Shown: piece after piece, positions 7,104-64,000 of the stretch
How the letters are laid out: each line of letters starts with the position of its first letter
How positions within the stretch are numbered: the first letter of the stretch is position 1
From: Halichondria panicea
Taxonomy: Eukaryota; Porifera; Demospongiae; Suberitida; Halichondriidae
Direction of reading: 5' to 3'
NCBI RefSeq assembly: GCF_963675165.1
Contig: NC_087380.1
Location: forward strand, 2,657,803 to 2,721,802
DNA length: 64,000 nucleotides
Made by a program: the position numbers and the translations under genes
Notes under the pieces: generated by a model
Told to the model about the DNA's origin: nothing
Database searches by the model: none
What the model saw: only the letters and a program-made list of their open reading frames with translations

Positions 7104-10100
7104 ATGAGATGCACACTTTCTATAATTTCAAGTATTCGTAAGTCAGATTTGTGTAAATGTGTACGTGTACGTGTATAGAGCCTATATACATGTATATATA
7201 TACCGTAATTGATGTAATCACAGCACCACCATAATTTAAGCGCCACGTCAGCATCAGCATAATTTTTTAGGTCCTAAAAAAGCGCCAACCTTTGTTGGAA
7301 TTATTTTTTTCTGGCGCTTATAAAAAGGCTTGTTTGAGACATCAAGACAATCATCTTGCATCTTTGACTTCCTTCACTTCTTTCACTTCTATATAAACAG
7401 TTGTCTAACCCATAGCTACAGTCAATGAACGTTGTTCACAAGTCACTCAGCTCTCAACAGTGCAGCTAGCAAGCGAAACTGAACCAGACCACGCCCATTT
7501 TCTCTACAAATTCTATACTAGCTGCATGTTGAACATAAGCGCCACCATAATTTAGGCGCCAGTTTGGGCTGAATGCAATTTTTTGTGCTCTAAAGATGCG
7601 CCACTCAGAAGTTGAATTAATTTTTTCTGGCGCTGTAATTACATCAATTACAGTAGACTGTCTAGTCAGGATTTAGCTATGAACAAACTCTATACAGATG
7701 ATTTATTCCTATGCAGTGTTGGTGCTCCAGCAGCTAGTGTCTGGACAGCAGTGTGGTACAGTCGGTCGTGTGAGCACTACAAGGACTGGTGATAATAGGG
7801 TAGAAAATGAGTTCTACATTAATCGTGGTAATCGTGCTGGATGTGCTGGGATGATCACCTCACTCTCTTACTGTTTCCATCGACCACCAGGAAATGTTCC
7901 AGTCGCTAACGAGTACCTGACTACAGTTGCTGTGTACAGACCAGCGAGTACCGATACAGATGAGAATGTATTTATGAATGTTTCTTCACCGATCACAATA
8001 CAAAAGTCGGCAACAGAAGTTCAAACTGAATTAACTGGCGATACTGATGACTTTGTATGCTCTGACCTTACTTTGGATCAACCAGTCGCTGTGTTGGCTG
8101 GTGATGTTCTTGGAGCATGTGTTTTCAACCCACCTGACAGAATTGGTGTCACCACTTATCGTCTTGATATAGTTAGCAGAGGAAACAATGAAGACCTGGT
8201 GAGAACCAGTACAGACCCTGGCATACCTACTGGTTGTGGTGCTAATGTGGTACCAAGCTCTTTTGTTGAAGGTACATCTGGTACAGGCCGTACTAGTACT
8301 AGCAGGTCTCTTCACCTCTGGGCAAACATAGGTATAAGTTGAGCTGTACAAAGTCTTATGGACTACAGTTTATGTTACATTCATGCAGTATAATTATTCT
8401 GTCCTTTCTACAAAAGAGCTTGTAACTGAAGCACCTACAACAGGAGCTACTACTATGGAAGCAACTACTGTAACCATGGAATCAATTACAATAGAAGTAA
8501 CTACACCTTCCACAACTACACCTGAACCAACTGCGGACACCACCTCTCCCAAAATCGTCACAGCTGACATGACCACAGCAAGTGGTCCACTGATTACTAA
8601 TGGGGACTCTACTACTTCCACCACAAACCGAGGGACAACGAGCAACCCTGATGCCACCACTCCACAACCCATTGGTGGTGGGGGAGGTGGTTCTAACGTA
8701 GCAACTATTGCCATTGCTGTGGTAGTTGTGCTCATTATTGTGGTCAGCCTAGCTGCCGTCACAGTGATAGTCATCATTCTTGTGTCAAAGAGGCTGAAAA
8801 AGGTCAAGAAATCATACGCAATGACCACCAACTCAGTAGGTAAGAGTTAAGCCATCTTGTAAAAAGAGTACCCGTATTGTCCCTCAAAAATGTGTTAGCA
8901 TCAATATCATGATTCTCCAGAGACCTCGATATAATTATTTAATGTTATTTCAATTACAGACAACCAGTTGTACTCGGCAGTGGCTAATGCTGAAAGCTTA
9001 GAAAGAGCTAAACGGGAACAGCCACTGCCACAGCAGCAAGGCAGTCAGTGGCCCACACAGTCCCAGGAGCATGTGTATGAGTTTGAGGGGGCGTTCAGTC
9101 CTACCCGGTCAATGGAGTCCACATATGCTGAAGTTGGGCCCTTTGGTGCAGTGGTGAGGGCAAAATGCTATACACTATTATGTTTGCTGTACATTGTTAT
9201 CTCTTATGGTACATCTGTGTGTGGATGTGCTGACTATGTAAACCACTCAACACAATGTGTACATGTACACTGTTGTCATTATTAGCTTGCCCAAGTGTGT
9301 GGGGATGCCATATTATGAATTCTATTGCCCTTGCCCTTATCAGGAGTCTAGTCTTACAGTATGAATTCCTTTAACTTGATCACATGAAATGTATACCATA
9401 AAGAAGTCAGGTTGCTATTCCATGCACATGTGTAATATAGAATGATGGTGAGATTGTGTATGAGTCTCCACTGGATGCCCCGGCTATCAGCTACAATAAA
9501 CTGTTGGAAAAGGTACAAATTATGTGTATACATTGTATGGCTATATTTAATCTAAATACAGAACAAGGAAGAGGACATTTATGTCGGAGAAAATCCGTAC
9601 GAAACACCAGCATCTAGAGAGAACGATATCTATGCTCAGTTGCAGACCTGGAGGGTGACACACTTGAACAGAGAAGACATTAAGTATGTCATTGAATATT
9701 GAGATATTTGACAAAACGATATTATATTACAGGATTGCTGGTCACCTTGGGTCTGGTCAGTTTGGCAGTGTGGAGCAAGGAGTGTGGAAGAGACAGGGAA
9801 CTCAACCAGTGGACGTGGCACTCAAGAGTCTCACCAAAACATCAGAGGAGGACAAAGTCAAGTTCCTCCAAGAAGCGGCGATCATGGCTCAGTTCAGACA
9901 CCCTAACGTTATCATGCTCCATGGAGTAGTCACCAGTGGAAACCCAGTGAGTGCATGGCAGTAGCTTAAATGGCCTCAGCTGCAAGTTTGTTTATCCAAC
10001 AAAATTAGGACACAGGAACAGAATGCACAGTCATTAATTGATTACAGCTTGCTGCTTGGCAACAGTTGATTACACTGATCGTATTATAAACTGTATGTAC

Positions 10101-11087
10101 AATGTAATAATGCAATTCGTATGCCTGCAGATGATGCTTGTGGTAGAAATGGCACAGAAAGGTGATTTGCGACAATTTCTCTTATCTCTTCGACCTGAGT
10201 AAGCATTATAATTTACAGTTAAATATAAATATACCACCTCACCCTCCACCCCATAGCCCGGGACAGTTAATGCCTAGCAATACCTTTTCAATGTTACTGA
10301 GGTTCTCTCAACAAGTTGCTCTTGGGATGCAGTACCTCTCAGCTAAAGGATTTGTGCACAGAGACATGGCTGCTAGGAATGTGCTAGTGACAACAAATAA
10401 CATATGCAAGGTGGTTTATTAACTTTTTAACTGTAAAAAACGCTCACTTTCATTTATACACATAGGTTGCTGATTTCGGAATGTCCCGAGATCTTGCTGA
10501 TGAGAACTACTATGTCTCACAAGGAACGGACAAGATCCCCGTCAAGTGGACAGCCCCTGAGGCCATTCACTACAAGAAGTACTCGACTGCCAGTGATGTG
10601 TGGGCCTACGGGTGTCTGCTCTATGAGATATGGAGTATTGGGCACAAGCCGTTTGAAGGAATATCTAATCCAGAGGTATTATATATACCGTCAACTTTAA
10701 CTTATTGATGTTCTTTGTACACATGCAGTCCATTCGACTCATTGATTCTGGCAAGCGTCTTCCTCCACCCCCTGGATGCCCTAAGATGATCTTCGAGCTC
10801 ATGATACTGTGCTGGTAAGATTCATTATTCTAGGTTTAGAAATGTGTGCACCATTTGCAACAAACTACATATTCTAATACAAGTCTGTCTTTTCATGCAG
10901 GCATCCTGAGAGCTCCCAACGTCTTGTGTTCCGTGATGTCGTGCTCACTCTTGTTGGAAGCGAAAAGATGGTCCTGAACATTCCCGAGGAGGACTCCTCC
11001 ACTAACCCACTGGCTGGAGTATTGGGAGCTCCATTGGAGGCCGGGGAGAACATGTACTCTCAGCTGCAAAGGAGATATATACATTGA
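7104..11087 (+). CDS. Receptor tyrosine kinase A1 (class A ectodomain), complete
   Basis: Single-pass receptor, 792 residues, twelve exons: 7104-7137, 7717-8331, 8417-8839, 8960-9153, 9441-9512, 9562-9683, 9733-9946, 10131-10198, 10257-10410, 10466-10675, 10729-10814, 10901-11087. Exon 1 plus the start of exon 2 gives a signal peptide ([15 protein letters not shown]...VSGQQ) split by a phase-1 intron. Exon 2 is the six-cysteine class A ectodomain. Exon 3 is a Thr-rich stalk, six glycines, a membrane helix and basic KRLKK. Exons 4-6 carry juxtamembrane tyrosines (HVYEF, TYAEV, IVYES, DIYVG, PYETP, DIYAQL). The kinase starts near residue 487: [14 protein letters not shown] lysine, QEAAIM glutamate, [22 protein letters not shown] activation loop, [15 protein letters not shown]. 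The tail ends [11 protein letters not shown]. All catalytic residues are present. The ligand is unknown. Confidence 0.9.
7201..7655. mobile_element. Miniature element in intron 1 of A1 (family M3)
   Basis: It starts TACCGTAATTGATGTAATCA and ends with the inverse (TACATCAATTACAGTA), so the terminal inverted repeats are about 20-25 bases. Inside, a roughly 100-base block (AGCRCCACCATAATTTARGC to TTTTTTCTGGCGCT) occurs twice in direct orientation, at about 7222-7320 and 7538-7634. It is non-coding. Flanking TA may be the target duplication. It accounts for most of the 579-base intron. Confidence 0.65.
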
Positions 11088-63200: not shown

Positions 63201-64000
63201 CCAATGAAAGCACCTCGGGTGCTGATGCCTCTATGGAGGTGCCAAAGCTACATAACATAAAGCTACTAATAGCTAGCTTTTATACACACATTGATTATAA
63301 TTATCATGATGAACATTTTTAAATTTGCTGCATGCAGAATCTAGAATCACAGGGAAACTCAAAGAGTGGGTAATGATCGACGATGATCGTTGTTAACGAT
63401 CGATGCCAACAGTTCAAGTCTAAAATTAATGGCTGCAAGTCAGCAGAGCCTTCCAGCTCTCTTCTCACTCTTGCAGCTAGCGTTCTAGTGCAGAGTTAAC
63501 TACTAAGTAGAGTAGCAACACTCGGTGAACAAGTTTTCCTACGGACTCTTCTGAAAAGGCTGCAATGGCATTCCAAGTAAGCAAAACTCGAGAATGGAAC
63601 TTTATTTTGCAAATCCACAAATACCAAGCCAAGAAAACATGACTAGAAGCCTATAGAAACTCTTACTCTCACTTCATTGATCCTTGAGCAGCTGAAACAG
63701 TCTACACACACACACACACAGACAGACACACAAACACTACCGTATACCTCGCTTGCGCATGCGCACCGAGGCATAATGACTAAATATTGTTAGGATTATT
63801 GATTGTTTTCATATAGGTTATAAGACTGATTGAACAAGGTCAAAGGTTAGCTCCACCCCCTGGAACTCCCGAAGCAGTGTACGAGCTGATGGTGCAATGT
63901 TGGTAAGTACAAAACAAGTACAAAACAAAAGTGCAGCAAATATTTATGAAAATGTCACTATTTTGCAGGCATTCAGAGAATTCCCAACGTCCTGCTTTCA
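60279..64000 (+). CDS. Receptor tyrosine kinase C3 (class C ectodomain), runs off the right edge
   Basis: Exons: 60279-60333, 60424-60981, 61036-61425, 61576-61754, 61951-62019, 62080-62201, 62253-62466, 62512-62579, 62630-62786, 62875-63084, 63817-63902, 63969 onward. Signal peptide [20 protein letters not shown]. The ectodomain is close to C1/C2 but without the TA insertion, so the frame continues through VLHIHADI into the Thr/Ser stalk and membrane helix. Then, instead of the tyrosine tail of C1/C2, come juxtamembrane exons ([49 protein letters not shown]) and a kinase: [51 protein letters not shown]. The hinge exon diverges most ([20 protein letters not shown]). Only the C-terminus is missing from the window. 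Confidence 0.9.
63085..63816. other. Long intron 10 of C3
   Basis: 732 bases, against 40-160 in most relatives. It contains a hairpin-prone GATCGACGATGATCGTTGTT stretch near 63377, a CA-rich microsatellite at 63703-63737 and a GC-rich TTGCGCATGCGCA word at 63753-63765. A transposon insertion is likely, but no ends were identified. Confidence 0.4.

Follow-up and report, generated by a model that had tools for sequence, protein, structure and literature searches.

A stretch of 64,000 nucleotides from the sponge Halichondria panicea (contig NC_087380.1, C4:2,657,803-2,721,802; called the window in the following) contains a tandem array of receptor genes in which the members of one ectodomain family continue into a tyrosine kinase in some genes and into a kinase-free tail in others. 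Gene models built by spliced protein-to-DNA alignment gave 14 ectodomain-bearing units inside the window, which belong to ectodomain class A (n = 8), class B (n = 3) and class C (n = 3). Nine of these 14 units continue into kinase exons (A1, A5, A6, A7, A8, B1, B2, B3 and C3; kinase output, K) and five into a kinase-free tail (A2, A3, A4, C1 and C2; tail-only output, T). A first-pass annotation of the same DNA had counted nine kinase and five tail units with both outputs present in classes A and C, and the gene models bear out both statements. According to the models six of the nine K units (A1, A6, A7, B1, B2 and C3) and one of the five T units (A4) are intact. The members are listed with their window coordinates:

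A1, 7104 to 11087, plus strand: K, intact; signal peptide 7104-7137/7717, ectodomain to 8331, stalk and transmembrane (TM) segment 8417-8839, juxtamembrane (JM) exons 8960-9683, kinase 9733-11084
A2, 13169 to 15177, plus strand: T pseudogene, N-terminal ectodomain gone, many frameshifts
A3, 15407 to 17375, plus strand: T, broken by two additional nucleotides in the ectodomain at about 15744 and a tail frameshift at about 17124
A4, 21608 to 24043, plus strand: T, the sole intact tail-only member within the window; signal peptide 21608-21641, ectodomain 21745-22389, stalk/TM 22440-22718, tail 22823-22987, 23189-23509 and 23628-24043 with the stop codon
A5, 25114 to 29236, plus strand: K, with a 1-nt insertion leading to TAA ahead of the kinase (about 27353); the K ectodomain nearest to that of A4
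A6, 30121 to 33624, plus strand: K, intact
B1, 34112 to 37267, plus strand: K, open frame, kinase loop with R instead of its first glycine; signal peptide 34112-34160, ectodomain, stalk and TM in a single exon 34281-35116
C1, 37449 to 39711, plus strand: T, broken by a 2-nt insertion at about 38153, second tail exon out of frame
A7, 40177 to 44042, plus strand: K, intact, stalk short
B2, 44297 to 47456, plus strand: K, open frame, kinase loop with R instead of its first glycine
C2, 47638 to 49883, plus strand: T, broken in the same way as C1
A8, 50348 to 56729, plus strand: K, broken by an insertion of about 3 kb (about 51195-54145), with loss of the stalk/TM exon and of the end of the ectodomain
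B3, 56986 to 60102, plus strand: K, with a 2-nt insertion in the signal-peptide exon (about 57002), the rest open; an alternative ATG lies within the exon
C3, 60279 to 64000, plus strand: K, intact; the last exon continues beyond the window end to C4:2721954

In classes A, B and C the signal peptide is split, and a short first exon is joined to the ectodomain exon in phase 1. The joint between the TM exon and the cytoplasmic exon is likewise in phase 1, as are both the JM acceptors of the kinase genes and the TM donors. In class B one exon holds ectodomain, stalk and TM segment. Signal peptides and TM segments were assigned by reading the gene models, without a predictor. Six cysteines are common to eight of nine aligned ectodomains from classes A, B and C, the sixth being absent from C1, and this cysteine is also missing in C2 and A3. 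In C1 and C2, two bases are inserted close to the end of the ectodomain and four where the second tail exon begins. The earlier description of fourteen members of one design therefore holds for the number of units and for the split signal peptide, but not for the sixth cysteine and not for integrity, because A5, A8, A2, A3, C1 and C2 are broken and the signal peptide of B3 is damaged. The common layout of ectodomain, stalk and membrane segment has exceptions as well: A2 is without the ectodomain start, A8 without the stalk/TM exon, and class B uses a single exon.

The array is wider than the window. It extends over approximately C4:2.516-2.757 Mb, and across classes A-D 32 units were modelled, of which 15 are K and 17 are T; the further members were modelled from most of the DNA of the array and are named by their C4 position in kb plus output (for example 2750T and 2753K). 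Both outputs occur within classes A, C and D of the whole array. Left out of this count are fragments in the vicinity of C4:2630, 2638 and 2647 kb as well as kinase genes of older, diverged type (2516-2525 and 2558-2571 kb), of which the kinase alone was modelled. C4:2586001-2606000 lies outside the modelled DNA, and at its low end the array may reach below 2516001. Searches of the genome (131 Mb, 39 contigs) with the ectodomains of A4, B1 and C3 and the tail of A4, whose match counts are lower bounds, yielded matches confined to the array except for two distant ectodomains at C4:1653190 and C17:3173468; no kinase or tail match was found within 8 kb and 5 kb of them. The solitary ectodomain exon in C4:1651001-1659000 (L018) is accompanied by frames that, by reading only, resemble CCP, TM and a tyrosine-motif tail, and it is possibly part of another tail-only receptor. 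The genome also contains wnt genes, with ten exon matches in about four places, as expected of an animal.

With a signal peptide, one TM segment and a kinase domain with catalytic residues, the K genes have the predicted make-up of receptor tyrosine kinases. A1 matches PF07714 with an E-value of 1.8e-86, and Pfam detects nothing but the kinase in A1. The best PDB sequence matches of the kinase are EGFR, then Eph, then FAK. The lysine of VALK, the glutamate of FLQEA and the motifs HRD.AARN, DFG and APE are retained in all nine kinases of the window. Kinase-domain pN/pS, the ratio of nonsynonymous to synonymous differences, ranges from 0.15 to 0.39 (ten pairs, broken A5 included), and the ratio of nonsynonymous (dN) to synonymous (dS) divergence in the ectodomains from 0.32 to 1.12 (ten pairs, broken A5 included), with A4/A5 as the highest value.

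The ectodomain had been called unfamiliar. No Pfam family was detected at E≤1 for the ectodomains of A4 and C3, and a PDB profile search with the ectodomain gave no sequence match at E≤10. An ectodomain of the immunoglobulin (Ig) type was not encountered by sequence; B1, searched together with its TM segment, gave four weak non-Ig Pfam families below the cut-offs. Two predicted ectodomain structures form a beta sandwich (predicted template modelling score 0.73 and 0.71; mean predicted local distance difference test score 67 and 68), and Foldseek returned nothing at E≤0.001 for these two models. On the Pfam, PDB profile and Foldseek negatives, membership in a known ectodomain family was rejected as far as the families on the VIA-align lists reach. 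Within the families contained in its lists, VIA-align placed the fiber domain of phage Douge gp20 on top, with Z 10.0 (root-mean-square deviation (rmsd) 3.3, 161 residues aligned) for one model and Z 11.2 (rmsd 3.0, 149 residues aligned) for the other, whereas carbohydrate-binding modules (CBM6/32/35-like) gave Z 5-6 with an rmsd of about 3-4 over about 100-115 aligned residues. The models point to a likely jelly-roll fold, and carbohydrate binding is only a lead that these comparisons provide.

The tail of A4 comprises 299 residues with 19 tyrosines and that of 2750T 184 residues with 12 tyrosines, and both terminate at their own stop codon. For tail exon T3, dN/dS is 0.20-0.53 in nine of the ten listed pairs and 0.71 in the tenth (T2 vs T3 of A4 itself); for tail exon T1 it is 0.23-0.55 (five pairs). 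As the pairs overlap and some of the compared copies are now broken, these values are to be read as past constraint. Immunoreceptor tyrosine-based inhibitory motifs (ITIM), scored by the consensus form [SIVL]xYxx[IVL] and as motif form only, occur three times in A4 (0.70 in shuffled tails, p 0.03) and twice in 2750T (0.43, p 0.06). The Grb2-type motif YxN is not enriched in the tail.

The two closest pairs of opposite output are both next-door neighbors. The ectodomains of 2750T and 2753K show 98.9% amino-acid identity (dS 0.023, dN 0.005) and those of 2639T and 2642K 97.1% (dS 0.032, dN 0.013). The nearest K of A4 is its neighbor A5 (82.9%, dS 0.094, dN 0.096), and D3T is nearest to its neighbor D4K with 91.1% DNA identity, compared with 73-75% to D2T and D1T. 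Every class with both outputs (A, C and D) has at least one T whose closest ectodomain is that of the adjacent K. In three pairs the fitted break point lies within the coded TM segment, with an identity of 97-99% on the left and 42-59% on the right side; the fit for 2750T/2753K started with the ectodomain exon, and that for 2639T/2642K and A4/A5 covered the stalk/TM exon and the following intron. A 100-base identity profile across the whole ectodomain exon of A4/A5 is lower (71-90%).

The phylogenetic trees of ectodomains and TM segments are discordant. In class A the ectodomain tree (14 of 16 units, without A2 and 2622T) contains five changes between K and T, of which at least three are forced by supported branches, and shuffled labels give a mean of 4.8. 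The TM tree (14 of 16 units, without A8 and 2622T) contains a single change with a support of 100/100. Constraining the K ectodomains of class A to one clade was rejected by 168.8 log units. In class C (8/8 units) two changes in the ectodomain tree stand against one in the TM tree (96/97), and the stalk tree shows zero supported branches. The ectodomain tree of class D (4/4 units) joins D3T to D4K (100/100), whereas the TM exon of D3T matches those of D1T and D2T at 95% and that of D4K at 76%. This discordance shows that the outputs are two lineages and that ectodomains have moved between them. Recognition parts have thus been exchanged between neighbors, presumably by gene conversion or unequal crossing-over, while two output modules persisted.

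The exchange was not limited to ectodomains. Across classes A, B and C the kinase exons k1, k2b, k3 and k4b are alike (dS 0.10-0.70 in five cross-class pairs), and these low values indicate that parts of the catalytic core were homogenized, too. The JM exons, k2a and k4a show a dS of about 0.8 or more, or one that is not computable, across classes, and class B ectodomains compared with the class A ectodomain of 2635T give 1.5-1.6. The stretch of the first kinase exon (window 9733-9946, 36048-36261, 62253-62466 and equivalents) shows about 94-97% DNA identity between classes, with ectodomains near saturation; this likeness we take as a sign of exon-wise homogenization of the catalytic core.

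Using tblastn with two kinase queries (E≤0.05), no match was obtained downstream of any of the five T genes of the window, nor after 2574T, 2618T, 2639T and 2722T, and 11 of the 18 tested stretches were empty. The idea that A4-type genes are kinase genes with an overlooked kinase was rejected on this ground. Degraded kinase pieces were found downstream of five T genes, a single short piece at 2622T and 2635T and more at 2734T, 2737T and 2750T, and in two further intergenic stretches. Judging from the pieces 3' of these five genes, some of the T genes seem to have replaced kinase genes.

Taken together, the array shares with paired receptors highly similar ectodomains on different outputs (2750T/2753K and 2639T/2642K) and the exchange of ectodomains between distinct outputs, which is strong in class A and has the same direction in classes C and D. 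The parallel to paired receptors drawn by the first-pass annotation is accordingly well supported in anatomy and evolution, by neighboring K and T genes whose ectodomains are almost the same and by discordant ectodomain and TM trees, most clearly in class A. With moderate confidence we interpret the locus as a paired-receptor array with a built-in kinase, in which co-clustering, phosphorylation in trans and tuning of the response would be the functional part. The recognition module consists of the split signal peptide, the six-cysteine ectodomain and a Thr-rich stalk, and is joined to one of two outputs that start inside the TM segment. The K output provides its own JM exons and a tyrosine kinase with catalytic residues, and the T output a different TM half and a kinase-free tail of repeated tyrosine motifs. 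The near-identical ectodomains of some neighbors result from a shift of the recognition part between output types, as the sequences show. K and T proteins might bind the same ligand on one cell and co-cluster, K might phosphorylate the T tail in trans, and the tail, in which two or three tyrosines have the inhibitory ITIM form, might recruit SH2 proteins, so that the ratio of K to T would set the strength or the sign of the response. The putative phosphorylation of tails by K members, together with a putative role in allorecognition, immunity or cell sorting, had been suggested before. A fast-changing array in a sponge suggests recognition of self/non-self or of microbes. We put forward tentatively, as a possibility, that an early-branching animal here possesses a locus for the recognition of self/non-self or of microbes with kinase-bearing paired receptors, in which K phosphorylates the tail of the T with the same ectodomain and gene conversion matches the two arms while the ligands change.

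Several observations weigh against the interpretation as a paired-receptor array. Part of 2635T is as close to A4 (83.7%) as A5 is, and the T-T match of the C1 and C2 ectodomains (99.4%) rivals the T-K matches. Class B has four K and no T members. Class C has only two K rows, and 59-65 of 500 shuffles match the TM split and all match the ectodomain result; in class D the TM comparison depends on one K gene. The full glycine loop is present in seven of the nine window kinases, B1 and B2 carrying R at the first glycine. The excess of ITIM forms in the tails is weak, and tail tyrosine columns are no more conserved than other columns (p 0.14 and 0.23). Finally, disabling lesions are present in 14 of 17 T genes but in only 4 of 15 K genes, which indicates that many T copies are dispensable in this haplotype.

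The last point leads to the explanation that the T copies are mostly debris of a birth-and-death array of receptor tyrosine kinases, or decoys that soak up ligand, and that their tails have no signaling role of their own. Array-wide, 11 of 15 K genes (A1, A6, A7, B1, B2, 2728K, C3, 2625K, 2642K, 2725K and 2753K) are intact, compared with 3 of 17 T genes (A4, 2750T and D3; Fisher p=0.0036). The test gives p=0.012 with 2639T and p=0.001 with B3 counted as intact. Among the K genes, 2625K was scored intact despite a frameshift call at the TM/JM joint, which was overruled by a donor visible in the DNA three bases upstream and by a normal acceptor. 2725K was also scored intact, its donor being mutated and another GT following six bases later. 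D3 was scored intact although a 2-base insertion alters its final residues, its signal peptide being read by eye, whereas 2639T, whose first tail exon fails to join the last one in frame, and 2737T (ATG to ACG) were scored as not intact. As read from these models, T genes decay more than K genes in this haplotype. The kinase pieces behind five T genes look as though T genes had replaced kinase genes, which also fits the debris explanation. On the other hand, tail dN/dS is below 1 in all ten listed T3 pairs, overlapping and partly broken as these are, and the frames of A4, 2750T and D3 are open. A tyrosine-rich tail would be needless for a simple decoy. In addition, the T-type TM segments of class A form one clade against K (100/100), and for this reason the T output is to be regarded as old and retained with its own TM. 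We consider it rather unlikely that debris or decoys account for the T genes.

About 10 of the 19 listed frame-breaking lesions resemble a TA inserted beside a TA (for example at window 15744, 38153, 48342 and 57002, and in the stretches L004, L006 and L015), and all but one (B3) lie in tail-only genes. These insertions may be due to slippage, a transposon footprint or assembly error. Errors of the assembly may also be the source of frameshifts; however, the lesions are concentrated in T genes.

The arrangement of the pairs offers another explanation, namely joint transcripts with either a T or a K end, in which an upstream T ectodomain is spliced to its own tail or to a downstream kinase. T lies immediately 5' of K in all four pairs (D3/D4, 2639T/2642K, A4/A5 and 2750T/2753K), and joins from T to the kinase would be in frame because TM donors and JM acceptors are both in phase 1. 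Moreover, no AATAAA or ATTAAA is found within 600 bases past the stops of A4 and 2750T, but such signals are also missing after A1 and A7, with one each after A6 and C3, so that this feature is uninformative. Against joint transcripts speak the signal peptides and ectodomains that intact K genes possess themselves, the stop codons at the ends of the A4 and 2750T tails, and the frameshifted kinase of A5; furthermore the TM segments of K and T differ, and joining would mix TM type and output. We regard joint transcripts as improbable. Very doubtful as well is an ordinary lineage-specific expansion of receptor tyrosine kinases for development or cell sorting, with neighbors kept alike by recombination and outputs of no combined meaning: a genome-wide search found at least 156 PF07714 matches (gene pieces), most of them outside the array, and the likeness of k1, k2b, k3 and k4b across classes means that exchange was not confined to ectodomains, but the outputs are distinct while ectodomains cross between them, as is reported for SIGLEC11/16 and the paired CEACAM receptors of Xenopus.

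The interpretation as a paired-receptor array with a built-in kinase can be compared with known systems. In vertebrates, paired receptors carry ectodomains of the Ig type and depend on kinases borrowed from the cytoplasm. Like the array, SIGLEC11/SIGLEC16 and CEACAM1/CEACAM3 are linked genes with near-identical ectodomains and differing outputs. Gene conversion maintains the similarity of SIGLEC11 and SIGLEC16, and SIGLEC16P alleles without function are frequent (PMC5701461); in Xenopus CEACAM pairs recent conversion is confined to the binding-domain exon (PMC5112662). In the array, by contrast, Pfam finds no match for the ectodomain, and one of the two partners is a tyrosine kinase in its own right; opposite signaling of these partners would be putative. 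The nearest invertebrate parallel we found is the fester family with the fester co-receptors (FcoR) of Botryllus schlosseri, described in excerpts of a review as paired recognition genes with tyrosine-motif tails and variation in gene content (PMC12065747). Both are invertebrate paired arrays with tyrosine-motif tails, but the Botryllus proteins have Ig/sushi ectodomains with no built-in kinase described in those excerpts (PMC12065747), and the Botryllus partners are two related families according to the same excerpts, whereas the partners of the array share near-identical ectodomains. Animal receptor tyrosine kinases such as Eph and EGFR resemble the array in their typical tyrosine kinase domain; unlike in these receptors, Pfam finds none of their ectodomain families in A1. 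We know of no tandem kinase-less genomic twins of Eph or EGFR. In plants, the S-locus receptor kinase and S-locus glycoprotein (SRK/SLG) of Brassica and the families RLK/RLP combine one ectodomain family with or without a kinase in linked genes for self/non-self recognition. This is similar to the linked kinase and kinase-less genes of the array, but the plant kinases are of the Ser/Thr type, and SLG is a secreted protein lacking a tyrosine tail. What distinguishes the array is its built-in kinase together with its unfamiliar ectodomain. Among the listed titles of one open-access library we met no such paired array of receptor tyrosine kinases, which does not prove its absence from print, and the portion of a kinome paper available to us does not mention such pairing (PMC8662651).

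The recognition receptors of early animals are largely unknown. In the consulted part of the Botryllus review the mechanisms of invertebrate allorecognition are termed a complete mystery, and the candidate allorecognition proteins of sponges, cnidarians and ascidians are stated not to be conserved (PMC12065747). If our interpretation is true, the pattern of ectodomain exchange typical of paired receptors occurs outside the Ig superfamily. If, beyond this, the array is the tentatively proposed recognition locus of kinase-bearing pairs, the logic of paired receptors would have arisen independently of Ig domains and of Src/Syk adaptors. The array yields 2750T/2753K, 2639T/2642K, A4/A5 and D3/D4 as named candidate pairs.

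Some additional features were observed in and around the array. The older diverged kinase gene at C4:2558924-2562220 (L005) has EFG instead of DFG and has lost the glycine loop; it likely encodes a pseudokinase receptor and could possibly represent a third output. On contig C1 of the genome, the region at about 15.5-17.4 Mb holds numerous PF07714 matches, each about 770 bases long, in open frames on both strands, and we read it as a separate large expansion of kinase genes. The insertion in A8 (window 51195-54145) contains gene fragments on the minus strand, one of which matches a VWD domain (E 5.4e-6). Adjoining A3, a 3 kb block of a 27-base minisatellite (window 17694-20616) consists of two halves that are mutually inverted copies. 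A MITE-like (miniature inverted-repeat transposable element) motif of 34 bases occurs in seven copies (window 6913, 11325, 11369, 12093, 13128, 14378 and 14421), some of which form close inverted pairs, and one copy sits immediately ahead of the start of the surviving ectodomain of A2.

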